Assembly: GCA_002011815.1 (NCBI GenBank)
Contig: MTOV01000016.1
Span: 1 to 37,395, forward strand
Source of the DNA: Nitrospirae bacterium JdFR-86
GTDB taxonomy: Bacteria; Nitrospirota; Thermodesulfovibrionia; Thermodesulfovibrionales; JdFR-86
DNA length: 37,395 nt
Direction of reading: 5' to 3'
Below, one piece after another: positions 1,145-37,160 of the stretch (positions within the stretch are counted from its first letter, which is position 1; the number at the start of each line of letters is the position of its first letter). Made by a program: the position numbers and the translations under genes. The notes beneath the pieces are model-generated. The model was not told the DNA's origin. It did no database searches and saw only the letters and a list, made by a program, of their open reading frames with translations.

Positions 1145-2563
1145 ATGCATCGCATTCTGATTATCGATGATGATGAAACCGTCAGAGATGTATTAGAGGG
1201 TTTTTTCACAGAAAAAGGTTTTAGCGTTGCTGCGGTCTCTGACGGGCAAGCAGGTCTTGACCTACTCAAAGAAGAGAAGTTCGATCTGTATTTTCTTGAC
1301 CTTGTGATGCCTAAAATGGACGGACTTGAAGTCCTGAAGAAGGCATCTGAGATGAATATAAACACTCCTGCCATTGTAGTCACTGCCTTTGCCACTGTCA
1401 AGACTGCGGTTGAAGCAGTAAAGCTTGGCGCATTTGACTATATCACAAAGCCTTTTGTTCTTGATGAGCTTTTGCTTGTAGCGAACAGGGCGATTGATGT
1501 CTCGAAGCTCCGGAAAGAAAACGTAAGGCTGAAGAAGGAGCTGAAGCATAAATACAAGTTCGACATGCTTACAGGGACCTCTCCCAAGATGCTGCAGGTG
1601 TATGAGCTGATTGAGAAGATTGCGGATACAGACACCACTGTGCTGATTACAGGGGAAAGCGGCACAGGCAAGGAGCGGGTTGCAAAGACGATTCATTTTA
1701 ACAGTTCCCGGTCTCAGGGTGCGTTTGTTCCTGTAAACTGTGCGGCGATTCCGAAGGACTTGCTCGAGTCAGAGCTTTTCGGGCATGAAAAAGGTGCATT
1801 CACAGGTGCAATAAACACAAGGATAGGGCGGTTCGAGCTTGCAAACGGAGGCACTATCTTCCTTGATGAGATAGGAGAGCTTCACCCTACACTTCAGGTG
1901 AAGCTTCTGAGGGTGCTTCAGGAAAGAGAGTTTGAAAGGGTAGGCGGCACAAAAACCATTAAGGTTGATGTAAGAATCCTTGCCGCTACCAATAAAGACC
2001 TTGAACGGGCAACAAAGGAAGGCACGTTCAGGGAAGACCTTTACTACCGGCTTAATGTAATTCCTCTGCACATCCCCCCTCTGAGAAAAAGAAAAGAAGA
2101 TATTCCTCTTTTAATAGAGCACTTCATGCATGAGTTTTCCAGAAAGAAGAGGAAAGCTCCTCTTAAGATAACCCCTGAGGCTATGGAATGTCTTATGAAC
2201 TATCGCTGGCCTGGCAATGTAAGAGAGCTTGAGAATCTTATAGAAAGGCTGGTCATACTTAATGATACAGGGGTTGTTACTCCTGAGGACCTTCCTGAGC
2301 GGTTTCATGTTTCAGGGAGCGGGCATCTCTCTGTAAAGGACGGTGCTATGCACATCTCAGGCATAGTGCTGCCCAAGGAAGGAGTTGACCTTAACGCCGT
2401 GCTGAATGAGGTGGAAAAAAGCCTGATTCTTCAGGCAATGAAGCGGGTAGGCGGTGTAAAAAGCAAGGCAGCGGCTCTGCTCGGGCTTAACAGAACAACA
2501 CTGATAGAGAAAATGAAAAAGAAAGGCATCAACTTCAACGGAGAAGATACCTCCCGTTCATAA
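1145..2563 (+). CDS. Sigma-54-dependent response regulator, FleQ/FlrA-like
   Basis: A 472-residue NtrC-type activator. Residues 1-120 are a receiver with acidic pocket DDD, phospho-acceptor D52 ([11 protein letters not shown]) and K102. The central AAA+ domain has Walker A GESGTGKE (170-177), the sigma-54 contact loop GAFTGA (217-222) and Walker B ending FLDEIGE (about 239-245). The C-terminal Fis-type helix-turn-helix ends [15 protein letters not shown], closely resembling the end of FleQ/FlrA flagellar master regulators. Unlike FleQ, whose receiver is degenerate, this receiver looks phosphorylatable. It begins the regulatory block of the flagellar locus. There is no ribosome binding site before ATG 1145, while a promoter-like pair ends just upstream, so a leaderless mRNA is possible. 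The assignment to the family is sure; the role as master flagellar regulator is inferred from its position and HTH. Confidence 0.93.
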
Positions 2564-2607
2564 ACACTAATCATACTGTTATTTTATTGCCGCAGTAGCC
2601 GGCATCT

Positions 2608-2621
2608 GTCGGTTATTTGAC
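2608..2621. promoter_or_regulatory. Weaker FleQ-box-like dyad before the TPR gene
   Basis: GTCG-GTTATT-TGAC has seven of the eight half-site bases of the dyad found at 1098 and 17562, and like the copy at 1098 it runs into TTGACA (2617-2622). The best -10-like hexamer downstream (TAAAAT, 2643-2648) is 20 bases away, which is too far for a good promoter. It is therefore a possible binding site rather than a supported promoter. Confidence 0.25.
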
Positions 2622-2685
2622 ACGCCTTCTGAATAAATCCCTTAAAATCCAATACATTATACTGGCATGTCTGTTGCTATACTTC

Positions 2686-4485
2686 ATGGCGATGGGCAGG
2701 ACAAGATTAATAGTCGTGTTGATTTTTATATTTTTGCCTGTCTTTTCGTGGGCTTCTTTTGAAGGGCTTATAAACTCACCGGCTTTAAAGGAGGCATGGG
2801 AGTCCGTCAGAACCGACAGGATATTTAAAGCAAGAAAGATACTTTCGGCTTATAAACCTGAGCCTGAGTCCCTTGCCATGTATCATTTTATTTATGCAAA
2901 GACAGTGGAGAATCCTCTTGATGCCATTGAACATCTAAGGTGGGCATATCTTTATTCCACGGAGGATGAACTTAAGGAGCTTGCATTGCTTCAGCGTGCG
3001 GATACATATCTTGAGCTTGGGTATTTTCAGGAGGCAAGGTCGGATTATCTTATTTTTATAAAGACCTTTCCTGCTTCCAGGTATATCAAGGAGGCGCACA
3101 AGGGACTGGCGAAGGCTTTAATGAGGCTGGGTGTTTACAGGGAAGCGATAGAACATTATGAAAAAGCTGGTGATACGCCTGAGTCGCTCTTTGGAAAGGC
3201 GAACGCACTTCAGCAACTCGGTCTGGTAAAGGAGGCGGCTAAAGCGTATGAAAAGGCGATGTCCAGATACAAGGGCTATATTCTGAGTTCTGACGAAGCG
3301 CTTTATTACTACGGAAAGAATCTGAGGGCAAGGGGCAGGTTATCAGAGGCAAGAAAGTATCTGGCATCTGTCAAAGGTGCTTCTTACAGGGACAGGGCAG
3401 AGATATGTCTCGGGCAGATTGCAATGACGCAGGGAAGGATAAATGAGGCGATTGACCATTTCAGTTCAGCCCTGTATTCCTCTTCCAGGGATGTCAGAAG
3501 GACTGCTTTGCTTAATCTTGCTTTAGCGCAGATAAAAGCCGGAAGATTTCAGGAGGCAAAGGCCAATCTTGAGGAGATAAGGTATAACTATCCTTATGGC
3601 AAGGGTTATGACGAGGCGATTTTAAGGCTTTCGAGGCTTTACAGCAGGGAAGGGGATTACACCACTGCAGTTTCGCTTCTGAAAGAGCTTGTCTTCAGGC
3701 TTTCTCCTGTTAAAGAGGCGCTGGATGAATTCGAGGCGATACTGATGGAGGTTAAGGAGAAGGACACAGCCCAGTTTATTAAACTCTGGAAGTCTGTTGG
3801 CCCGTGGCTTCTTGACAGGTCAAGGGAAAAAACCCTGATAGAGGTGGCTGATGCCTTAAAGCCTGCGGGTGAACCCTTTCTTGAGGTATCCGACTGGCTT
3901 TTAAAACACGGTTCACCCAGGGCAAAGGCACGGAGTCTTACTGCCCTTACTACCTATTACGCAGAGGTGGGAGATATAAAGACTGCAAAGAAGTATCTTG
4001 AAGAAATAAAAGCCATAAAAAGGTCATCTGATGATGTTTTCAGGGCAGAGGCAAAGGTGTTTTATGCAAGCGGGGATTTTAAGTCTGCTGCAGAAAAGCT
4101 TCTGCTGATAAAGGAACTGAGCGAGGAAGACCTGAGTCTTCTTGCAGACACACTTACGTCTGCAAAGGACATAAAAAAGGCGATTGAGTTTTATGAAAAG
4201 GCTCTTAGAAAGGTAAGAGTAAAGGAAGCAGAGGATTATATTGCACTTGCTGACGTGCTGTATGAGCAGGGGGAAAAAGCAGAAGCACTTAAGTATTACA
4301 AGCTTTCACTGGAGAAAGAACCGGACAATGAATGGGTGCTGTATAGAATCGGTGTGCTTTCAGACAGGAAGGAAGCAGAAAGGATTTTCAAAAAGATAGG
4401 CGAGAACAATTCAGTCATAGGCAGGCTGGCAAGTGCAAGGCTTAAGGAATTTAGTGTTGTCAAGAGGATGGAGGAGATGTTTTAA
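2686..4485 (+). CDS. Exported tetratricopeptide-repeat protein
   Basis: About 599 residues. The N-terminus (M.MGRTRLIVVLIFIF...FSWA) is a signal peptide, probably cut after WA, so the protein should be exported or membrane-tethered. The rest is helical TPR repeats with the usual A..YY..AL spacing; clear ones are near residues 120-200, 240-330 and at the C-terminal side around 500-575 (AIEFYEKAL, ALKYYKLSLEKEPDN). I chose ATG 2686 (or 2692) because the longer reading from TTG 2617 adds a second hydrophobic stretch and overlaps a TTGACA dyad; no start has a strong ribosome binding site. It is two bases upstream of the histidine-kinase gene, so likely cotranscribed with it. A role as a periplasmic sensor or assembly scaffold for the kinase is possible but only inferred. 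Confidence 0.82.
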   Translation: MAMGRTRLIVVLIFIFLPVFSWASFEGLINSPALKEAWESVRTDRIFKARKILSAYKPEPESLAMYHFIYAKTVENPLDAIEHLRWAYLYSTEDELKELALLQRADTYLELGYFQEARSDYLIFIKTFPASRYIKEAHKGLAKALMRLGVYREAIEHYEKAGDTPESLFGKANALQQLGLVKEAAKAYEKAMSRYKGYILSSDEALYYYGKNLRARGRLSEARKYLASVKGASYRDRAEICLGQIAMTQGRINEAIDHFSSALYSSSRDVRRTALLNLALAQIKAGRFQEAKANLEEIRYNYPYGKGYDEAILRLSRLYSREGDYTTAVSLLKELVFRLSPVKEALDEFEAILMEVKEKDTAQFIKLWKSVGPWLLDRSREKTLIEVADALKPAGEPFLEVSDWLLKHGSPRAKARSLTALTTYYAEVGDIKTAKKYLEEIKAIKRSSDDVFRAEAKVFYASGDFKSAAEKLLLIKELSEEDLSLLADTLTSAKDIKKAIEFYEKALRKVRVKEAEDYIALADVLYEQGEKAEALKYYKLSLEKEPDNEWVLYRIGVLSDRKEAERIFKKIGENNSVIGRLASARLKEFSVVKRMEEMF

Positions 4486-4487
4486 GC

Positions 4488-5642
4488 ATGGAAGAGATAA
4501 GTCGTTTAAGTGAGGCTTTCCGGAATTTTACTCTGGCATCCAGAAGTCTTGAGACATACTACGAGAAGCTTCAGGAGAAGATACGGTATCTAACCATAGA
4601 GCTTGAGGAGAAGAACAGGCAGTTGAGGGATGCCCTTCTTGATGCCGAGGAGGCGAAAGACTATCTGAAGGGGATACTGGAGAGTCTGAGGGAAGCGATT
4701 GTTGTGCTTGACCCTGAGGGCAAGGTAACGATGATAAACAGGGCAGCTGGTGAGATGTTCGGACTGCAAGTGGAAGAAGCCATAGGCAGGCATTTTGACA
4801 GCCTTGGTTTTTCTATTGATGGTGAGGATGCAGAGGCAGTGCTTCACACGAAGAAAGGAAGATACGATGTTATTGTGTCCCGTTCTGAGGTGAAAGATTC
4901 AGAAGGCTTGGTCAGAGGGAGGGTTATTCTTTTTCAGGACATAACGAGGATAAAGGAGCTTGAGGCTGAAAAAGAGCGCAATCACAGGCTGATTGCAATG
5001 GGCGAGATGGCTGCCAAAATAGTTCATGAAATAAGAAGCCCTTTATGCAGCATAGAGCTTTATGCAAGCATGCTTGCAAGAGAGCTTGAAGGCAGCGAGC
5101 ATGTCAATCTCGCAAAGGGGATATCCACCGGCATAAGAAGTCTTAACAATGTTCTGACGAACATGCTCTTTTTTGCAAGACCTCAGAAGCCTGTGCTTAA
5201 GCCTGTAGAGCTTGAAAAGACCCTTGATGAAACTCTCTTTATGCTGATGCCGATGATTGAAAGCAGGGGCATAGAGTTAAAGAAATCCTCGGAGTGTTCA
5301 GCCCATATTGCAGGAGATGCAGAGCTTCTTAAACAAGTGTTTCTGAATATTCTTTTAAACTCGGTTCAGGCTATGCCTGATGGAGGCAGGATAGAAGTTG
5401 CCATTAAAACGGATGACGGGTTTGCAGTCGTAGAGGTGGCGGACGAAGGGGAAGGCATAGGGCATGAAGACCTTGAAAGGATATTTGACCCGTTCTTCAG
5501 CACGAAGGAAAAGGGTACAGGACTGGGGCTGGCTATAGCGTCCAAGATAATGCAGGCGCATGGAGGGACTATAAAAGTAAAAAGCGAGTTGGGCAAAGGC
5601 AGCAGGTTTCAGCTTTATCTCCCGTTAAACGGGCATAAATAA
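4488..5642 (+). CDS. PAS-domain sensor histidine kinase, FleS/FlrB-like
   Basis: A 384-residue soluble kinase with no membrane segment. Residues 1-60 form a coiled coil, 60-155 a PAS domain (AIVVLDPEGKVTMINRAAGE), and 165-235 the HisKA dimerisation domain with the phospho-accepting H180 in VHEIRSPL. The ATPase part has N box N291 (NILLNSVQA), G1 DEGEGIG (319-325), F box DPFFSTK (334-340) and G2 GTGLGLA (343-349). All catalytic motifs are intact. It lies directly between the TPR gene and an FlrC-like activator, the same order as the FleS-FleR/FlrB-FlrC pairs, so it most likely phosphorylates the regulator at 5677 and perhaps the one at 1145. The cytoplasmic PAS domain implies an internal signal such as completion of the early flagellum; the real signal is unknown. 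Confidence 0.93.
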   Translation: MEEISRLSEAFRNFTLASRSLETYYEKLQEKIRYLTIELEEKNRQLRDALLDAEEAKDYLKGILESLREAIVVLDPEGKVTMINRAAGEMFGLQVEEAIGRHFDSLGFSIDGEDAEAVLHTKKGRYDVIVSRSEVKDSEGLVRGRVILFQDITRIKELEAEKERNHRLIAMGEMAAKIVHEIRSPLCSIELYASMLARELEGSEHVNLAKGISTGIRSLNNVLTNMLFFARPQKPVLKPVELEKTLDETLFMLMPMIESRGIELKKSSECSAHIAGDAELLKQVFLNILLNSVQAMPDGGRIEVAIKTDDGFAVVEVADEGEGIGHEDLERIFDPFFSTKEKGTGLGLAIASKIMQAHGGTIKVKSELGKGSRFQLYLPLNGHK

Positions 5643-5676
5643 CGATTGCAATATTCTGTCTGTAAAGGAGTTTGAT

Positions 5677-6981
5677 ATGAACCCTATACTGGTAGTCGAC
5701 GATGACCCTCAGATGAGGGCGGCATTAAAGGAAGCAATACAAAGGCTTGGCTATGATGCCGTTGTTGCTGAAAACGGGCAAGATGCTCTGGCAAAACTCA
5801 ACAATCTCTCCTGCTCGATGGTTATAACTGACATGAAGATGCCGAGGATGAACGGTCTTTCACTCTTAAAGGAAGTCAGGCGGAGGGCAGGCAATCTGCC
5901 GGTGCTTGTAATCACTGGTTTTGCTACTGTCGAGAATGCAGTAGAGACGATGAAGGAAGGCGCAGTGGAGTATCTCATGAAGCCTTTTTCCTTTGATACG
6001 CTTTCGATGCGGATTAATTCGATAATGGAAGGGCTTGCAAAAGAGCGTGAGATGGTCTTTTCAAGCGAGAAGATGAAGAGGCTTGTCAAGCTTGCCGAGG
6101 ACATTGCACGCAGTGACACTACAGTGCTGATATACGGTGAAAGCGGCACAGGCAAGGAGCTTCTTGCAAGGCATATTCACAGTGCAAGCCCCAGACGGGA
6201 GAAACCTTTTGTTGCCGTCAACTGTGCAGCGATACCTGACACACTTATGGAGTCAGAACTCTTTGGTTTTGAAAAAGGTGCATTTACAGGCGCAACAGAG
6301 AAGAAAATCGGAAAGTTCGAGCTTGCAAACGGAGGCACTATACTCCTTGATGAGATAGGCGAGATGTCCATGGCTTTGCAGGCAAAGCTTCTAAGGGTGC
6401 TTCAGGAGAAAGAAATCGACAGGGTAGGAGCAAAACAACCTGTACCTGTGGACATCAGAGTGATAGCTACCACAAACAGAGACCTTTACAAGGAAAGCCT
6501 TGAAGGAAAATTCAGGGAAGACCTCTATTACAGGCTCAGTGTATTTCCATTACATATACCACCGTTGAGGGAAAGGACAGAGGACATACCTGTTCTGGCA
6601 GAGCATTTTCTTAAGAAGTTTTCCTCTGAAATCGGCAAAAACGTCAGCGGGTTTACAGAGGAGGCAATGGAGTTTCTTATGAGGCGGCACTGGAGGGGGA
6701 ATATCCGGGAGCTTGAAAACACCATTCACAGGGCAGTGCATCTTGCAAAAACAGATGTGATTGAAGTTGACGATTTCATGCTCTACGAGGAAGTCTCTTC
6801 CCCTGATGCAATGCCTCACGGCAGTATAAAAGACATGGAAAGGAATCTGATACTTAAGACCCTGAGGGAAGTAAACGGCAACAAGACAAAGGCGGCGAAG
6901 ATGCTCGGCGTGAGCGTAAGAACCATAAGAAACAAGCTGAACGAATACGGTATGAATGGGAAAAATTTTCCTATTCAGTGA
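5677..6981 (+). CDS. Sigma-54-dependent response regulator, FlrC/FlbD-like
   Basis: A 434-residue activator. The receiver (1-118) has D52 ([11 protein letters not shown]) and K102; the AAA+ domain has Walker A GESGTGKE (154-161), GAFTGA (201-206) and Walker B LLDEIGE; the Fis-type helix-turn-helix is at about 385-430 ([23 protein letters not shown]). The start is backed by AAGGAG about ten bases before ATG. It follows the kinase gene by 35 bases and precedes the rod genes. FlrC/FlbD/FleR proteins switch on class III hook and basal-body genes with sigma-54, and sigma-54-like elements before flgB, fliK and fliL in this window are the natural targets. The family call is firm; target assignment is inferred. 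Confidence 0.93.
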
Positions 6982-27373: not shown

Positions 27374-29221
27374 ATGCTCCGTGCCCGGGTCTTGAATAAG
27401 CTTATCAACGACCTTTCACACCCTGATGTTTCACGGAGAAGGTCAGCTGCCCGGTCGCTTTCTGAAGCCGATGAAAGGGCAATTTATCCTTTACTGAAGG
27501 CATTAAAGGATGAAAACCCTGGGGTTCAGGATGCCGCAATGCGTTCTCTTATTGCCATAGGTGGAGAGGTCGTTGTCTATATGGTGCTTCCACTCTTAAG
27601 AGAAGATTCCTATCTGAGAAATACGGCACTTATAATTCTGAAGGAGCTTGGCAGTGTATCAGTTCCATTTCTGTATCCGCTGTTGAAGGACAAGGACGAA
27701 GATGTGAGGAAGTTCAGTCTTGATCTTCTTGGAGAGATAAAGGAAGGTGTTGAACCTGAGAAGATAGTTCCCCTGCTCAGGGATTCCAATCCGAACGTAA
27801 GGGCTGCTGCTGCAGATGCCCTTGGAGAGCTTATGTATAAAGAGGCAGTGCCACAGCTTGTTGATGCACTTGATGATGAAGAGTGGGTGTGTTTTTCTGT
27901 GCTTGAAGCCCTTGGGAAATTACAGGCTGAAAAGGCTGTAAAGCGCATAACAAAGTTGCTTTCAAGCGAATCTGATGCACTCAGGTATGCTGCCATTGAG
28001 ACTCTTGGCAAGATAGGCTCGGTTTATGCAGCCGATGCACTGCTTGAACATATATCCAAAGTGGAGGGCGCAGAAAGGACAGCGGCTATAAAGAGTCTTG
28101 TTCAGATAGGTGTTACTCCTTCCATGTCAGATGTTTTCGGTGTGCTCATGGATATGCTTAAAAACGGAGACTGGGAAGAAAAACTCATTGCTCTTAAGGG
28201 CTTGGTTGAATTGAAGGAGAGGAGTGGAGTTTATGCCATAGTGGACATTGCAGGCTCTCTGGACCAGTCCGGCTTGGATGACGAGGAGAAGTTGATTGTA
28301 ATAAAGGATGCACTCATGAGGCTGGATTGTGCTGATGTACTTATAGATATTCTTGATGATCCATCTGTCCGGTACAGGGGGAAGGTTATTGTAGCGGAAG
28401 TGCTTGGAGATATGAAGTGTGAGAAGGCAGTGCCTTCTCTTGTAAGGCTTCTTGAAGGCGGGTTAAGAGATGTAAGAAGGGCAAGCATAAAGGCATTGGG
28501 TAATATAGGTGCCGAAGAGACCAGAGACCTGCTTCTGGATGCTGTTGACGACTATGACGGACATGTCAGAAGAACGGCTGCTGCTGCACTTGGAAGGATA
28601 GGAGAAAAGAGGGCATTTAACTCTCTTTTAAAACTTCTTCACACTGAAAGGCACAGGGATGTAATTGAAGAAGCAGTCAAGGCGCTTCTGAGGATTGATC
28701 AGGAAAGTTTCTTTTCGCATCTTGGGAAGTTTGACAGCGAGGTAAAAGATATCATCGCCAGGTTCACGGACAATGCTGATGTTCTCATTCAATTATCCAG
28801 AGACAAAGACCTTGGTGTGAGGGTAACGGCACTGTCAGGGCTTGGAAGGGTGCATGGTGAGAAGGTCTACCAGCGACTTAAAGAGGCTGTTAAGGAAAAA
28901 GAGCCTGAGGTTCGAAGGGCAGCGGTTATGGCCATGGGAGAGCTGAACTGCTGTCATGAGGAGATAAAGGCATTGCTTGGCGACGATGACACGTGGGTCA
29001 GACTCTATGCGGTCAAGGCACTGGGCAACTGCTACACTCAGGATATGATTAAGACTCTTGTGCCAATGCTTGAGGACAGGGATGTACCTGTAGTTCTTTC
29101 TGCTATAGAGGCTATAGCGCGGCTTGGCGGTAAGGAGGCGTACAGCATCCTCAGTTCTCTGAGGAATCATGATGACCCGGCAGTAAGGGAGAAAGTCTAT
29201 CAAGTGGTGGAAAGCTTATGA
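27374..29221 (+). CDS. Large HEAT-repeat protein in the chemotaxis operon
   Basis: A 615-residue soluble protein built from start to end of about 31-residue HEAT-like helical repeats, with recurrent patterns such as DPSVR..A..ALG.IG.E.A...L...L, for example near residues 20-55, 105-165, 340-420 and 485-610. No signal peptide or membrane segment. It is 24 bases after fliA and overlaps cheR by four bases (ATGA), so it belongs to the che operon. HEAT solenoids are protein-binding scaffolds; a role in chemosensory array assembly or in CheR function is inference only. I do not recognise a named family. Confidence 0.85.
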   Translation: MLRARVLNKLINDLSHPDVSRRRSAARSLSEADERAIYPLLKALKDENPGVQDAAMRSLIAIGGEVVVYMVLPLLREDSYLRNTALIILKELGSVSVPFLYPLLKDKDEDVRKFSLDLLGEIKEGVEPEKIVPLLRDSNPNVRAAAADALGELMYKEAVPQLVDALDDEEWVCFSVLEALGKLQAEKAVKRITKLLSSESDALRYAAIETLGKIGSVYAADALLEHISKVEGAERTAAIKSLVQIGVTPSMSDVFGVLMDMLKNGDWEEKLIALKGLVELKERSGVYAIVDIAGSLDQSGLDDEEKLIVIKDALMRLDCADVLIDILDDPSVRYRGKVIVAEVLGDMKCEKAVPSLVRLLEGGLRDVRRASIKALGNIGAEETRDLLLDAVDDYDGHVRRTAAAALGRIGEKRAFNSLLKLLHTERHRDVIEEAVKALLRIDQESFFSHLGKFDSEVKDIIARFTDNADVLIQLSRDKDLGVRVTALSGLGRVHGEKVYQRLKEAVKEKEPEVRRAAVMAMGELNCCHEEIKALLGDDDTWVRLYAVKALGNCYTQDMIKTLVPMLEDRDVPVVLSAIEAIARLGGKEAYSILSSLRNHDDPAVREKVYQVVESL

Positions 29222-30033
29222 GGGATATTGTTCTTCAGGACTCTACGTTCAAACAACTTAGTGATTTTGTATATGAAAAGACCGGGATATTTGTGCCTCC
29301 TTCAAAGAAATATCTTTTTGAGAACAGGCTCATAAATCTTATAAAGGAGAAAAACTTTAAGGGGTTTGATGAGTATCTTTATTACATTAAATACAATTCC
29401 AACGGCAGGGACCTCTCAAGGCTGTTTGATGCGATAACGACGAACGAGACGTATTTTTTCAGGGAGCCGCAGCAGATGGATGTGTTTATAGATGAAATAG
29501 TGCCAAGAGTTGTGCAGGGCAGGACAAAAGATATCAGGATATGGTCTGCTGCGTGTTCCACCGGAGAGGAGCCTTATACCTTGGCAATGATGCTGATGGA
29601 AAAGAGAGGAGATGTGCGGGCGGACATACTCGCATCGGACATAAGTGACAAGGCATTGGAATCTGCCAGAAGAGCTACATACAATTCGTATTCCATAAGG
29701 AATGTGCCTGAGCTGTATCTTAAGAAATATTTCAGAATTAACGGGCAGGACTATGAGCTTATTCGCCCTGTCAAGGCAATGGTCAGGTTCAAGAACATAA
29801 ATCTTATAGATGAGAAAGAAGTTGGGAAGATAAACTCTATGGATGTTATATTCTGCCGGAATGTCCTCATATACTTTGGTGATAAGGCGAAGCAGCAGAC
29901 GGTTTCACTTCTTTATGATTGTCTAAAGCCAGGAGGATTTTTGTTTATAGGCTCTTCAGAAAGCCTTCATAACATAACTAGGGCGTTTAGGCCAATGACT
30001 ATTAACAGGGTAATAGTTTATCAAAAGGTGTAG
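29218..30033 (+). CDS. cheR: Chemoreceptor methyltransferase CheR
   Basis: A 271-residue S-adenosylmethionine-dependent enzyme that methylates glutamates of chemoreceptors. The N-terminal helical domain is followed by TTNETYFFREP (about 74-84), the SAM-binding loop SAACSTGEEPYTLAM (about 108-122), ASDIS, and NVLIYFG. No TPR extension. Start overlaps the HEAT gene, and the stop touches the next gene start. Confidence 0.97.
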   Translation: MRDIVLQDSTFKQLSDFVYEKTGIFVPPSKKYLFENRLINLIKEKNFKGFDEYLYYIKYNSNGRDLSRLFDAITTNETYFFREPQQMDVFIDEIVPRVVQGRTKDIRIWSAACSTGEEPYTLAMMLMEKRGDVRADILASDISDKALESARRATYNSYSIRNVPELYLKKYFRINGQDYELIRPVKAMVRFKNINLIDEKEVGKINSMDVIFCRNVLIYFGDKAKQQTVSLLYDCLKPGGFLFIGSSESLHNITRAFRPMTINRVIVYQKV

Positions 30034-30035
30034 TG

Positions 30036-30425
30036 ATGAAAATACTGGTGGTTGATGACTGTAAGACTACAAGGAAACTTCTTGGGATTTATCTCAAGGC
30101 GAATGGCTATGATGTAGTGTTTGCGGAAAACGGTTTGGATGCAATGGAGAAGCTCGGGACCGAAGACATCAATCTTGTGATGACAGACCTCAATATGCCA
30201 TATATGGACGGTATTGAGCTTACAAAGAATCTTAGGGCAGAAGCCAGCTTAAAGCATATCCCCGTGCTTATAGTTACTACTGAAGCAGACGAAGAGGAGA
30301 GAGCAAGGGCGTTCGAGGCAGGTGCCAGTGGATATCTTGTTAAGCCTGTAACCGCCGAAGCGGTCTCAAAAAATATAAAAGCTATTCTTGGAGATATCTT
30401 TGCTAAAGGAGGTCCCGATGCCTGA
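30036..30425 (+). CDS. CheY-like single-domain response regulator
   Basis: A 129-residue receiver with D7/D8, phospho-acceptor D51 ([11 protein letters not shown]), T81, Y100 and K103, so it looks phosphorylatable. AAAAGGTG precedes the ATG at 30036; a GTG one codon upstream is possible. It ends inside the start of a second CheY gene. It differs from that one enough to have its own job, for example a phosphate sink or a second motor or array response. It is less like E. coli CheY than its neighbour. Confidence 0.92.
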
Positions 30426-30807
30426 TTTAAACATGAAGATACTCGTTGTAGATGATTTCTCTACAATGAGGAGAATAGTAAAGAACATTCTCAAGCAGAT
30501 CGGGTATGAAAATATTGAGGAGGCGGAAGACGGCGCACAGGCGTATGCAAAGTTAAAGGAAGGCGGATTTGGCTTTGTCATAACTGACTGGAATATGCCG
30601 AACATGGATGGTCTTGAGTTTCTGAAGAAGACGCGCAGTGACCCAGAGTTAAAGGACACACCTGTCCTTATGGTTACGGCTGAAGCAGAAAAAGAGAAGG
30701 TTGTAGCTGCTATTCAGGCAGGTGTTAACAATTATATTGTAAAGCCGTTTACGGCTGAAGTGCTTAAAGAAAAGATGGACAAGATATTAGAAAAACTTGG
30801 GAAATAG
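30418..30807 (+). CDS. cheY: Chemotaxis response regulator CheY
   Basis: A 129-residue receiver that carries the signal from CheA to FliM. Nearly every key E. coli CheY residue falls at the same number: D12/D13, D57 followed by W58 ([11 protein letters not shown]), T87, Y106 and K109. AAAGGAGGT (30405-30413) fixes ATG 30418 rather than the longer in-frame reading. It is directly upstream of cheA and is the likely substrate of the CheZ domain encoded at 32633. Confidence 0.96.
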
Positions 30808-30816
30808 GAGACGTAT

Positions 30817-32613
30817 ATGTCTGAGGGAATGGAAGAAATAATTGCTGATTTTGTTACAGAGGCAGAGGAGTCGCTTGAGAAGATAGACCCTCTTTTTGTC
30901 GAGCTTGAGGCGAAAGGGCAGGACAAGGACCTCCTGAACGAAATATTCAGAAGCATGCATACCATAAAAGGTGCGGCAGGCTTCCTTGGATTTCAGTCCA
31001 TAGTGGATGTTGCGCACAAGGCAGAGACCATAATGAAGAAGCTGAGGGATAATGAAATCCAGATGTCGTCTTCTCTTATAAGTGTGATTTTAAAGAGTGT
31101 GGATATGCTCAAGGCGCTTATTTACCACATAAAGGTCAATGATGGTCAGGAGGAAGACACTGCACCACTGTTAAAGGAGCTTGATGACGCACTGAATAAA
31201 GCCCAGCCGGTTTCGTCAGTTGAGGCACCTGCAGAAGAAAAGCAGCAGCCTACGGAGGAGAAGCAGCAGCCTACGGAGGAGAAGCAGCAGCCTGCGGATG
31301 TTTCCCCTGCGGTTGAGAGTGCAAAGGAGGTCTCGGTTGCCAGTGCTGACAAGCCTTCGGTGTCTGTTCCCGGTGAGGATAAACCTGATAAGCCTGCAGT
31401 CTCCTCTGTTCCAACAGGACCTGTGCAGACGCTCAGGGTTGATATAAACAGAATAGACAATGTGATGAATCTCACAGGTGAGATTGTCCTTGTCAGGAAC
31501 AGGCTCTTGAACATTGCGAATTATCTTGAGGAGAAGTATTCAAGTGATGAGCAGGTGACGGGTCTTCAGGAGGCAGTGGCGTTTCTTGACCTTGTAACCT
31601 CGGATATGCAGCTTGCAGTCATGAAGATGCGAATGCAGCCGATAAAGAAAGTCTTCAGCAAGTTTCCGCGTCTTGTAAGAGACCTTTCCAAGAGTCTTGG
31701 CAAGGAGGTTGAGCTTAATATCACAGGCGAGGATACAGAGGTTGACAGATCTGTCATAGAGCGTATAGGCGACCCCATGGTTCATATCATAAGAAACGCG
31801 ATAGACCACGGTCTTGAGTCAGTCGAAGAAAGGAAGAAAAAAGGCAAGCCTCCGAAGGGCAGGGTTGACATAACTGCATATCAGCAGGGCAATCAGATTA
31901 TTATCGAGGTTTCTGACGATGGCAGAGGAATAGATATAGAGAAGGTCAAGAGCAAGGCTCTTGAAAAAGGTCTTATAACTGAAGAGGAAGTCCAGAGGAT
32001 TTCTGATGAAGCAGCGGCTAACCTTATATTTCTGCCAGGGTTTTCCACTGTTGATAAGGCTACAGAGCTCAGTGGCAGAGGCGTAGGCATGGATGTTGTC
32101 AAAACGAATATATCCAGACTTAACGGATATGTTGAAATAGTTACGAATAAGGATGTTGGAACAACCTTCAGGATAAGCATTCCTCTTACGCTTGCAATAA
32201 TACATGCGCTTATGGTGCGTGCAGGAGGTGTGCAATATGCAATTCCTCTTGGTCCTATAGAAGAGACCCTTAAGATTGCGCAAAAGGACATAGACAATAT
32301 CACAGGGCAAAAGGTATTAGCCATAAGAGGAAAGGTTTATCCTTTGTCTGAGCTTACGGATATTCTCGGTTACACTTCGGTGGAACATTCTGACAAAAGG
32401 TATGTGCTTGTCATTGCAATAGGCGACAAGAAGTTCTGTGTTGCCGTAGATGAGCTTTTAGGGCAGGAGGAAGTAGTCATAAAGACTATTGAAGGCATTG
32501 ATACAGACTCCACCGGAATACTCGGTGCAACTATAACCGGAGATGGAAAGATAGTTTTGATACTTGATCCTTCCAGTATGTCGAGAAAGGTTACAAGTTT
32601 AGCAAAAGTATAG
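30817..32613 (+). CDS. cheA: Chemotaxis histidine kinase CheA
   Basis: A 598-residue kinase. P1 has phospho-accepting H48 (SMHTIKGAAGFLGF); a Pro/Glu/Gln-rich linker (about 128-205) with three EEKQQPT-type repeats replaces an evident P2 domain; P3 dimerisation helices start at LRVDINRIDNVMNLTGE; P4 has HIIRNAIDHGLE, DDGRGID and GRGVGMDVV; P5 is the CheW-like domain at the C-terminus. All catalytic motifs are intact. It lies ten bases after cheY. The absence of a clear P2 means CheY may dock less tightly. Confidence 0.97.
   Translation: MSEGMEEIIADFVTEAEESLEKIDPLFVELEAKGQDKDLLNEIFRSMHTIKGAAGFLGFQSIVDVAHKAETIMKKLRDNEIQMSSSLISVILKSVDMLKALIYHIKVNDGQEEDTAPLLKELDDALNKAQPVSSVEAPAEEKQQPTEEKQQPTEEKQQPADVSPAVESAKEVSVASADKPSVSVPGEDKPDKPAVSSVPTGPVQTLRVDINRIDNVMNLTGEIVLVRNRLLNIANYLEEKYSSDEQVTGLQEAVAFLDLVTSDMQLAVMKMRMQPIKKVFSKFPRLVRDLSKSLGKEVELNITGEDTEVDRSVIERIGDPMVHIIRNAIDHGLESVEERKKKGKPPKGRVDITAYQQGNQIIIEVSDDGRGIDIEKVKSKALEKGLITEEEVQRISDEAAANLIFLPGFSTVDKATELSGRGVGMDVVKTNISRLNGYVEIVTNKDVGTTFRISIPLTLAIIHALMVRAGGVQYAIPLGPIEETLKIAQKDIDNITGQKVLAIRGKVYPLSELTDILGYTSVEHSDKRYVLVIAIGDKKFCVAVDELLGQEEVVIKTIEGIDTDSTGILGATITGDGKIVLILDPSSMSRKVTSLAKV
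31234..31296 (+). repeat. Three 21-bp tandem repeats in the CheA linker
   Basis: Three head-to-tail copies of GARGARAAGCAGCAGCCTRCG, encoding EEKQQPT, EEKQQPT and EEKQQPA. The last two differ by one base. They extend the flexible linker between P1 and P3 and are a likely site of slippage. Confidence 0.9.
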
Positions 32614-32632
32614 AAAGTCAAGGGGATGATTT

Positions 32633-33868
32633 ATGCAACAGTATGTAGGTTTTAAACTAAACGAGAACGAATATACCATTCCGATATTAAAGGTTCAGGA
32701 GATTATCAACACGCCAAGCATAACCAGGTTACCGCAATCGCCGCCTTATATTCGTGGTGTTACGAATCTAAGGGGGAAGGTCATTCCTATAGTGGATTTG
32801 AGGAAGCTTGAAACTGTCGGTGAAACAAATCTTGAGGCCACTAAGGTAATAGTTCTTTCAAACAACAACGTTGCATTTGGCATTCTTGTGGATGAGATAA
32901 CCGGTGTAATAAACATAGACGAGTCAAACATAGAACCACCTGAGCATTTCATGCAGGGGCGTATCGAGCGTATAGAAGGCGTTGCAAGATTCAATGACAG
33001 GATGGTTATCGTGTTGGATACGAACAAACTGGTTGAGACGGATGACCTGCAGTTTGATGAGAGTGCAGTTGATGCAGGCAAATTTTCGGTTGCAGGTGAA
33101 GAGAAGGTTTTGGAGATAGTCCAGGATTCACTGGATGAGGCGAAAAAGATACAGGAGGCGAGTTCGCCTCAGGGCATTGAGGTTGTAACAGGTGAAGAGA
33201 AGTCTGATACAAAGGAATTGTTAAGCAAGATGATCAGTCTTGACGAAAGGAAGAATAAATTTATCACCACACTGCTGGAGTTGCTTGATGTGCTTGCAGC
33301 GCACGATTATGAGCGTGCCGATATGCTGGTCTCAGAGTTGCTGCGGTCTGCAGAAGGCGAGCTTTACAATGAAGTAGGCAGAGTAACAAGAAAGCTGCAT
33401 GACTCTATACGCGAGTTTAAGCAAACGCTTAATCCCAGACTCAAAAGGATTGCAAGGAACGAAGTGCCCAGTGCGGTAGACAGTCTTCAGTTTGTTATCA
33501 GGAAGACCGAAGAGGCTGCAAACACGACGATGGAGATAGTAGAGAAGTATCTGTCCGGGGTTTCGGAACTGGCTGCGCATATAGAGAAAGTGAAAGCTCC
33601 TGAGGAGTCTGTAGGATATTTGAAGTCATTTGTCAAGGCACTGAACAGTGATATGACTACAATATTGCTGGCTCAGGAGTATCAGGATATAACCGGTCAG
33701 GCTATAAAGAAGGTAATAGAGCTTATTAATTCAATAGAGAGCGAGCTTGTGGGTTTGATTGCAACTTTTGGTCTAAAACTTGATACAAAACCTGTGGAGG
33801 ACGAGCAATTGTCCGAGAGGATTACACAGGATCAGGTAGAAGACCTTCTTAACGAGTTTGGCTTCTGA
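32633..33868 (+). CDS. CheW-CheZ fusion: array coupling protein joined to CheY-P phosphatase
   Basis: A 411-residue two-domain protein. Residues 1-135 are a CheW domain (VGFKLNENEYTIPILKVQEI; RGVTNLRGKVIPIVDLRK). An acidic linker (136-195) follows. Residues about 200-411 are CheZ: a long helical hairpin (VPSAVDSLQFVIRKTEEAANTTMEIVE), the catalytic motif EYQDITGQ with D352 and Q356, corresponding to E. coli CheZ D143 and Q147, then a flexible tail and the C-terminal CheY-binding helix ITQDQVEDLLNEFGF, almost identical to the E. coli CheZ end. There is no receiver, so it is not CheV. The fusion should hold the phosphatase in the receptor array. The reading frame is continuous and lies between cheA and cheB. 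Confidence 0.93.
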   Translation: MQQYVGFKLNENEYTIPILKVQEIINTPSITRLPQSPPYIRGVTNLRGKVIPIVDLRKLETVGETNLEATKVIVLSNNNVAFGILVDEITGVINIDESNIEPPEHFMQGRIERIEGVARFNDRMVIVLDTNKLVETDDLQFDESAVDAGKFSVAGEEKVLEIVQDSLDEAKKIQEASSPQGIEVVTGEEKSDTKELLSKMISLDERKNKFITTLLELLDVLAAHDYERADMLVSELLRSAEGELYNEVGRVTRKLHDSIREFKQTLNPRLKRIARNEVPSAVDSLQFVIRKTEEAANTTMEIVEKYLSGVSELAAHIEKVKAPEESVGYLKSFVKALNSDMTTILLAQEYQDITGQAIKKVIELINSIESELVGLIATFGLKLDTKPVEDEQLSERITQDQVEDLLNEFGF

Positions 33869-34911
33869 TGGTAAGGGTTCTTGTTGTAGATGATTCTGCA
33901 TTTATGAGGAACGCCCTCTCCAGGATGCTTTCCGAGGACCCTGAGATTAAGGTAATAGGCACGGCGAGGGACGGGGTGGAAGCAATAGAGAAGGTGGAGA
34001 GTTTAAGGCCTGATATTGTGACCATGGATGTCGAGATGCCGAGGATGGACGGTATCGAGGCATTAAGGCATATAATGCAGAAGAATCCTGTGCCTGTTGT
34101 GATGGTGAGTTCTTTAACAACAGAAGGTGCAAAGGTTACGCTTGATGCCCTTGACCTCGGAGCCGTGGATTTCATACCGAAGAACCTGTCGGAGCTTTCC
34201 CTGAATATTCTAAAGATTAAGGAGCAATTGATCGAAAAGATAAAAAATATAGGCAAGATGGGTCGTGTTAAAAAGCATGTTAAGCCTGTAGCCCCACGGG
34301 AGGTGGTCAAATACATACCTGAAAGGACAGTAGGTGAACGGCGTGTGAGCATAGTAGCTATCGGGACTTCTACTGGTGGTCCCAAGGCTCTTCAGGAGAT
34401 AATTCCCCGGCTGCCGAAGGACTTTCCTGTTCCTATTCTGATAGCGCAGCACATGCCTCCGAATTTTACAGGTCCGTTTGCAGAAAGGCTTGATGAGCTG
34501 AGTAATATCACTGTGAAAGAGGCAGAAGAGGGCGAACCTCTAAAGCCAGGGATTGCTCTGATAGCACCTGGCAAAGGACATATGAAAGTGGTTAAGAAGA
34601 CAGCGATAGAGGCTGTAGTCAATATTGCTGAAAACACAAAGGAGTTTATATATCGTCCGTCTGTGGATGTCCTTATTCTTTCTGTGGCAGAGTCATTTCC
34701 CGGCAGGGCGCTTGGTGTGATACTTACAGGCATGGGCTCTGACGGGCTGAAGGGGGTGACTGTATTAAAAAGGACTGGTGGAAGGGTTTTTGCCCAGAAT
34801 GAGGAGACATGCGTGGTTTACGGAATGCCGAAGGCAGTAGTAGACGCAGGTCTGGCAGATAAGGTGCTCTCTTTGGAGGAACTGCCTGGAGAGATTATAA
34901 ATGCAGTGTAG
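33868..34911 (+). CDS. cheB: Chemoreceptor glutamate methylesterase/deamidase CheB
   Basis: A 347-residue adaptation enzyme. The receiver (1-125) has D54 (TMDVEMPRMDG); the catalytic domain has the Ser-His-Asp triad S168 (IGTSTGGPKAL), H195 (IAQHMPPNFTG) and D292 (LTGMGSDG). ATG overlaps the stop of the CheW-CheZ gene. With cheR in the same operon it provides receptor methylation feedback. Confidence 0.97.
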   Translation: MVRVLVVDDSAFMRNALSRMLSEDPEIKVIGTARDGVEAIEKVESLRPDIVTMDVEMPRMDGIEALRHIMQKNPVPVVMVSSLTTEGAKVTLDALDLGAVDFIPKNLSELSLNILKIKEQLIEKIKNIGKMGRVKKHVKPVAPREVVKYIPERTVGERRVSIVAIGTSTGGPKALQEIIPRLPKDFPVPILIAQHMPPNFTGPFAERLDELSNITVKEAEEGEPLKPGIALIAPGKGHMKVVKKTAIEAVVNIAENTKEFIYRPSVDVLILSVAESFPGRALGVILTGMGSDGLKGVTVLKRTGGRVFAQNEETCVVYGMPKAVVDAGLADKVLSLEELPGEIINAV

Positions 34912-34939: not shown

Positions 34940-35428
34940 ATGGAAACATTGGCAGCGGCTGACAATATATTGCAGTTGGTTACCTTTTCCCTCGGGAACG
35001 AGGAGTATGCAGTAGACATTCTGAAGGTGCAGGAGATAAACAGGATGACAGAGATAGCGAAGGTACCTAATGCACCGCACTATGTAGAGGGTCTGATAAA
35101 TCTGAGGGGCAGGGTGATACCGGTTATAAGTCTTAGAAAGAGGTTTGGGCTTAAGGAGAAAGACAGTGATGAGCGCTCAAGAATAATGATAATGGACATA
35201 CAGGGAATCACTATAGGTCTTGTAGTGGATTCTGTCTCAGAGGTCTTGAGGATACCTGCTGCTACAGTAGAGCCGACGCCGCCGATAGCCTCGGACATAA
35301 GCACCGAGTTTATAAAAGGCATAGCAAAGCTCGACGACAGACTCATAATACTGATTGACATGGACAGGCTGATAGAGAAGTCAGAGACTACGGCGATGGT
35401 CGAGGCGACGAAGGCTATAGAAGAGTAG
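34940..35428 (+). CDS. cheW: Chemotaxis coupling protein CheW
   Basis: A 162-residue stand-alone CheW that links receptors to CheA. Signature stretches are LVTFSLGNEEYAVDILKVQEI, NLRGRVIPVISLRKRFGL and GLVVDSVSEVLRIP. A GGGAGG site precedes the ATG. It is the second CheW domain of the operon and, unlike the one fused to CheZ, has no output domain. Confidence 0.97.
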   Translation: METLAAADNILQLVTFSLGNEEYAVDILKVQEINRMTEIAKVPNAPHYVEGLINLRGRVIPVISLRKRFGLKEKDSDERSRIMIMDIQGITIGLVVDSVSEVLRIPAATVEPTPPIASDISTEFIKGIAKLDDRLIILIDMDRLIEKSETTAMVEATKAIEE

Positions 35429-35477
35429 GTTTACGGGACAGATGTATTTAAATAACTCCTAAAGGTAGGTGGATGCC

Positions 35478-37160
35478 ATGAAATGGAAGGATATTAAGAT
35501 TGGCAACAGGCTTATAGCAGGTTTTTTTGTGGTGGCTGCAGTGCTCCTTGTTTTTGGAATACTGCAGTATTACAACATGTCCCGTGTAAGCAACAGAACG
35601 GTTGGTGCTATAGAGGCAGCACCGTTGATTGACGCTGCAGGAGAACTGCAGTTGTCTGTCGTCCAATGCATGAAGTTGATTGCCGAGACGTTTGTGGTGA
35701 ACAACCCGGACAAGCTGGCCGAGATATCCGAGGAGATGCAATACTGGGTGGAACACTATGATACATTTGCCGCTGCCATTTTGAACGGAGCTGAGACTGA
35801 AAAAGGCAGGATTTATGCTGCAAAGGACGAGGAATTAAGGGCGGTGCTTGAAGAATCCAACAGGTTTCATAAAGAGGAATTCCGTCCCAGACTTAAAAAA
35901 ATATATGAATTTCATCAGGCAAGGGTTACCGATACTCTGGATGCAGTGCTGATGTTTTCTCAGGTGGAGAAGCTCAAGGAGGAGGTTGACGAGCTTGGAG
36001 TAAAGATGATGGAAATTATTAAGAAGGTTGCAGACGGTGCCAGAGATGAGATGCTCGATGCACTTTCCACATCAAAAAGGATTGCACTGGTATCCAAGAC
36101 GCAATCGATAGTCGGAATTATTATAGGTTTTGTTCTTTCGATCTTACTTGGGCTTGTGATTACCCGTTCTATAACTACCCCTCTTTATAAATGTGTTGAT
36201 TTTGCCAAGGCGATCGCAAAGGGAGATTTGACAGCAGTTGTAGATATTAACCAGAAGGACGAGACAGGTATGCTTGCAGATGCATTAAGACTCATGGCTG
36301 ACAATCTGCGGCGGATAGTAGGGCAGATATCTACTGCTTCTTATACTGTATCAGCGAGTTCTGAAGAGCTTTCCAATACGACTGCGCAATTAAGCGAAGG
36401 GGCGAATCAGCAGGCACTTCAGACAGAGCAGGCTGCAACAGCCATGACTGAAGTTTCTCAGACAGTGGTTGATGTTGCAAAGAATGCAAGTGAGGTTTCT
36501 GCTGCCTCCAGGGAGAACAGTCAGCTTGCAGTGAGTGGACGCGAAAAAGTAGAGGAGACAGTCAAGGGAATGCGGCGGATAGCCGAGACCGTGAAAGAGT
36601 CGGCTGCCACTGTGGAGCAGCTTGGCAGGTCAAGTCAGGAAATAGGCAATATCATCAGTACGATTAACGACATTGCTGACCAGACGAATCTTCTTGCTCT
36701 GAATGCGGCTATCGAGGCAGCAAGGGCAGGAGAGCAAGGGCGTGGTTTTGCAGTGGTGGCTGATGAGGTCAGAAAGCTGGCAGAGCGGACAGGCAGGGCA
36801 ACAAAGGAGATAGCCCAGATGATAGAGAAGATCCAGACCGATACTGAAAGGTCGGTAGCCAGTATGGAGTCCGGCAAGAACGAAGTGGAAAACGGAGTCA
36901 GACTTGCAGAAGAAGCAATGGCTTCTCTTAGACAAATAGTAGAGTCTTCAAAACGCAGCACGGAGATGATTCAGAGAATAGCTGCTGCAACCGAACAGCA
37001 GTCGGCTGCTGCTGAAGAGGTCTCTGCCACAATGGAGTCAATTGCAAATGTGACAAGACACACCAAGACCTCAAGCGAGCAGATACAGACTGCTGCACAA
37101 AGACTGGCGCAAATGGCTTCAGAACTGAGAGAAGCTGCAAGCTGGTTCAAGCTGTCGTAA
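35478..37160 (+). CDS. Methyl-accepting chemotaxis protein
   Basis: A 560-residue chemoreceptor. TM1 is at about 12-32, the periplasmic ligand-binding region is all-helical (about 33-205, with [20 protein letters not shown] and [11 protein letters not shown]), and TM2 at about 213-233 ([20 protein letters not shown]). A HAMP domain follows, then the cytoplasmic hairpin with tip [20 protein letters not shown]. The C-terminus ([10 protein letters not shown]) carries no NWETF-type CheR-tethering peptide. Start ATG 35478 has AGGTGG five bases ahead; GTG 35469 is less likely. The ligand cannot be told from the sequence. Confidence 0.96.

Follow-up and report, generated by a model that had tools for sequence, protein, structure and literature searches.

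A CheW-CheZ fusion protein in Nitrospirota as a probable array-tethered CheY-P phosphatase

The window analyzed here, i.e., the whole stretch of 37,395 nucleotides from the Nitrospirae bacterium JdFR-86, encodes a protein of 411 amino acids, CheWZ, in which a CheW adaptor domain and a CheZ domain are joined (cheWZ, positions 32633..33868; this and all other features given below are on the forward strand). The fusion is real and conserved, and it is made of two known domains. We consider it likely that CheWZ acts as a CheY-P phosphatase that is tethered to the chemoreceptor array via its CheW domain, and not via CheA-short. No description of a CheW-CheZ fusion was found in the searchable literature on the fusion or on CheZ and CheW architectures.

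A preliminary description of this DNA had claimed one continuous frame composed of CheW and CheZ, and the open frame, Pfam and matches to sequences of solved structures bear it out in coordinates, frame and domains. A ribosome-binding-like AAGGGG, read directly from the sequence (32620..32625), is followed by the ATG 7 nt downstream. The CheW domain covers residues 3-135 (32639..33037) and is supported by Pfam, by solved CheW structures and by Foldseek: PF01584 scores 130 bits (E 5.7e-38), far over the cut-off, the solved CheW 2ho9 is matched at 8e-23 in a sequence search, and the predicted model recovers the CheW fold (6s1k_C, E 1.1e-14). Residues E23 and R47 correspond to E38 and R62 of E. 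coli CheW, where Glu38-Arg62 is a conserved salt bridge (PMC3828127), and none of the 54 aligned fused proteins deviates at either position. With the whole domain, the invariant Glu/Arg pair and the fold of solved CheW proteins, CheWZ resembles an ordinary CheW adaptor, from which it differs by its putative C-terminal phosphatase; a separate CheW is also encoded in the operon.

The CheZ region extends approximately from residue 203 to 411. PF04344 covers residues 243-322 and, separately, 334-411 (E 2.9e-32; 112.6 bits against a cut-off of 30.7), so that a CheZ profile is found within residues 200-411 as the preliminary description had proposed. E. coli CheZ (1kmi) is matched at 1.7e-10 in a sequence search, in which it and the CheW proteins are the closest solved structures. 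The helical body, residues 203-378 (33239..33766; Pfam, alignment and AlphaFold2), is composed of N-terminal helices and a long hairpin. Aligned with E. coli CheZ, the catalytic helix carries YQDITGQ at residues 350-356; within its DITGQ motif (33686..33700), D352 and Q356 correspond to D143 and Q147 of E. coli and are invariant in all 54 aligned proteins. The expected C-terminal CheY-binding helix is likewise present at residues 399-411 (33827..33865; alignment and AlphaFold2), where DQVEDLLNEFGF aligns to the E. coli tail DQVDDLLDSLGF and AlphaFold2 predicts a helix at 399-408.

CheWZ thus shares with E. coli CheZ the catalytic Asp and Gln, the long hairpin and the C-terminal helix, but it is joined to CheW and its hairpin is shorter by 21 residues. 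The shortened tip consists of residues 320-323 (33590..33601; alignment and AlphaFold2), and the missing E. coli residues include DDWF. The earlier characterization as a complete CheZ is therefore correct with regard to the active site, the bundle and the tail, but not to full length. The aromatic tip motif D(D/E)WF, characteristic of CheZ tethered by CheA-short, is absent in 54 of 54 fused proteins in the alignment; in E. coli, the DDWF hairpin tip is the site where CheZ binds CheA-short (PMC7750401). The absence of the tip is not specific to fused proteins, because unfused CheZ proteins of Nitrospirota likewise align without the DDWF tip, and CheZ of alpha- and delta-proteobacteria was reported to be without the CheA-short-binding sequence (PMC7750401). 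Judged by these sequence comparisons, loss of the tip alone does not account for the fusion.

The structure of CheWZ was predicted with AlphaFold2 as a monomer, using an alignment of 54 relatives, and reached a mean pLDDT of 73 and a pTM of 0.39. The CheW domain is predicted with confidence, the hairpin is formed by helices 268-319 and 324-378, and a second loose stretch precedes the tail helix. The two halves are connected by a linker of residues 144-191 (33062..33205) that is predicted to be disordered (pLDDT < 50); its length is 49-51 residues in most relatives, with a range of 32 to 74. A Foldseek search with this monomer model (pTM 0.39) recovered the CheW part only and not CheZ; the C-terminal half is identified as CheZ by its profile matches and its residues.

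Flagellar genes take up the 5' part of the window. Downstream of these follow the sigma factor FliA, a HEAT-repeat protein, cheR (29218..30033), two cheY-like genes (30033..30425 and 30388..30807), cheA (30817..32613), cheWZ, cheB (33868..34911), whose start overlaps the cheWZ stop, the separate single-domain cheW (34940..35428), and a methyl-accepting chemotaxis protein (35469..37160), the che and receptor genes being assigned by Pfam. The overlapping tandem cheY-like pair (30033-30807) is kept in many relatives, and the HEAT-repeat protein (615 aa, 27374-29221) adjoins cheR here and in several relatives. In addition, two response regulators of the sigma-54 activator type and a PAS histidine kinase are located 5' of the flagellar genes (1145-6981). 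The 2.1 Mb genome encodes three CheA and three single-domain CheW-type proteins, one each in the window. A genome search revealed no other CheZ besides CheWZ; a weak match under the cut-off, C5:29853-30224, was rejected as a second CheZ since it is a receptor coiled coil. CheC and CheX were not detected in the genome.

In the mechanism that we favor, the CheW domain would bind CheA-P5 and/or receptor tips, as ordinary CheW does, and the flexible linker of approximately 50 residues would keep a dimeric CheZ phosphatase near the kinase. CheZ would take CheY-P by its C-terminal helix, D352 and Q356 would accelerate hydrolysis, and the phosphatase would stay with the kinase without CheA-short. Array insertion, dimerization and activity of CheWZ are inferred here. 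A tie of the phosphatase to the array by the CheW domain fits the evidence, because the Glu-Arg pair is kept, the gene lies beside cheA in a flagellar and che operon, the genome has no CheZ besides CheWZ, and the tip for CheA-short binding is absent. A point against this mechanism is the separate CheW of the operon, with which the fused domain would not be required as sole adaptor. CheZ dimers could possibly join neighboring CheW units; a rigid cross-link of the lattice appears unlikely from the predicted model, in which the disordered linker favors a loose tether.

A different role for the CheW part would be to sense receptor or CheA and to switch the fused phosphatase on and off, i.e., feedback rather than plain co-localization. 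The layout recalls CheV, where a CheW domain brings a signal-terminating domain into the array (PMC4742279), and a model of activity-dependent CheZ has been published for E. coli (PMC1447658). However, the linker is predicted to be disordered and its length ranges from 32 to 74 residues, as would be expected of a passive tether more than of an allosteric connection, and we regard such a switch as rather unlikely. CheWZ also differs from CheV in its C-terminal part: the receiver of CheV was proposed to be a phosphate sink (PMC4742279), whereas CheWZ carries a predicted CheY-P phosphatase domain, and Pfam found no Response_reg match in CheWZ.

The neighboring kinase offers another explanation. 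The window CheA has the domain order Hpt-P3-P4-P5 without P2 (Pfam and comparison with relatives); Hpt and P3 are separated by a linker rich in PTEEKQQ in which Pfam finds no P2, a situation shared with the CheA of most relatives. In the CheA proteins of the relatives, just 39-124 residues lie between Hpt and P3, mostly rich in Pro and Glu. The fusion might hence serve mainly to raise local CheY, with the tethered CheY-binding helix replacing the missing P2 besides terminating the signal. But a first pass detected P2 in fewer than 20% of CheA proteins, and the domain was called dispensable (PMC10782961), so that a stand-in would not be needed, and we give this explanation slightly less weight still. 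As to CheA-short itself, cheA contains an in-frame ATG (31105-31107) near the place of the E. coli CheA-short start; only some of the relatives conserve the residue, and a strong ribosome site is not evident for this ATG.

The distribution of the fusion was studied in a sample of 396 Nitrospirota genomes. Within the same order, 73 of 75 genomes with a CheZ match at E 1e-10 or better contain the fusion, a few copies being cut at a contig end; of the two exceptions, one is a fragment at a contig edge and the other a weak match. All other genomes of the class with CheZ (17 of 17) contain it as well, while other Nitrospirota families, e.g., f29, encode CheZ alone with about 220 aa. Where the flanks are readable, most loci have the fusion next to cheA, either 5' or 3' of it, and in some a receptor gene lies between them. 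That the fusion reflects a sequencing or assembly error, or two genes joined by a frameshift, as the preliminary description had allowed for, can be dismissed, because this two-domain frame recurs in dozens of independently assembled genomes, some of them on a single contig.

Beyond the phylum, a fusion-profile search of 398 sampled Pseudomonadota genomes revealed no fusion, and none of the 12 Pseudomonadota CheZ with frames over 340 aa among the matches listed contains CheW. Among the best 80 matches from the genomes of 84,980 species, every full-length match belongs to Nitrospirota; the closest relatives include several Thermodesulfovibrionia. No plasmid record covered 80% of the CheWZ protein. 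The suggestion that the architecture is not a standard one thus applies to the 398 sampled Pseudomonadota, but not within the class, where the fusion is the standard form of CheZ. Three loci deserve separate mention. On a Nitrospiraceae chromosome, a fusion of 337 aa (L078:3995-5005) is shortened in its CheZ part, possibly by frameshift or loss; a main-type fusion outside the class (L230 in genome G111) may stem from horizontal transfer or a contaminating contig; and the genome of a Lamellibrachia endosymbiont has, close to its first CheZ gene, another CheZ-like one (L085:6583-7185).

Family f22, represented by three genomes, also has a CheW-CheZ fusion. In an unrooted CheZ tree its CheZ groups with unfused Nitrospirota CheZ, and in the CheW tree its CheW domains stand, with weak support, apart from the main fused CheW. 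A single clade of all fused CheZ was rejected by the AU test (p 3.5e-72), a value obtained with a quick tree, long branches and an unknown root. The gene order in f22 is FliA-CheY-[fusion]-CheA, and the relative G087 has CheZ alone in the same slot. Because the f22 CheZ belongs to a different group and the slot in G087 holds CheZ alone, these data suggest that the fusion arose a second time, in f22. On this unrooted tree, one old fusion followed by losses would be the alternative, two fusions being the simpler account for f22. In the CheZ trees, a gammaproteobacterial CheZ branch lies next to the fused CheZ, with which it has the N-terminal helices in common; under some roots, gammaproteobacterial CheZ would derive from the fused form.

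A CheY phosphatase on an array component also occurs in Leptospirae, where CheA is fused to CheC or CheX (PMC10782961). As in CheWZ the connection is covalent, but the phosphatase family is unrelated to CheZ and is attached to the kinase, while CheWZ uses the adaptor. The enteric CheA-short/CheZ pair holds CheZ at the array, as is predicted for CheWZ, but non-covalently, by the very hairpin tip that is missing in CheWZ. A further-reaching picture would be a covalent, CheA-short-independent placement with at least two origins within a single phylum, the tethered CheZ also recruiting CheY for a P2-less CheA and thus adaptor, CheY dock and signal terminator in one protein; we offer it as speculation to which we attach little likelihood.

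Placement of CheZ at the receptor array was worked out mainly in enteric bacteria, via CheA-short. In CheWZ, placement would be hard-wired into the protein across a whole bacterial class, such that the benefit of having kinase and phosphatase in one place becomes directly testable by cutting or swapping the linker. CheWZ may also provide a ready-made part to build or model signal termination in chemoreceptor arrays.
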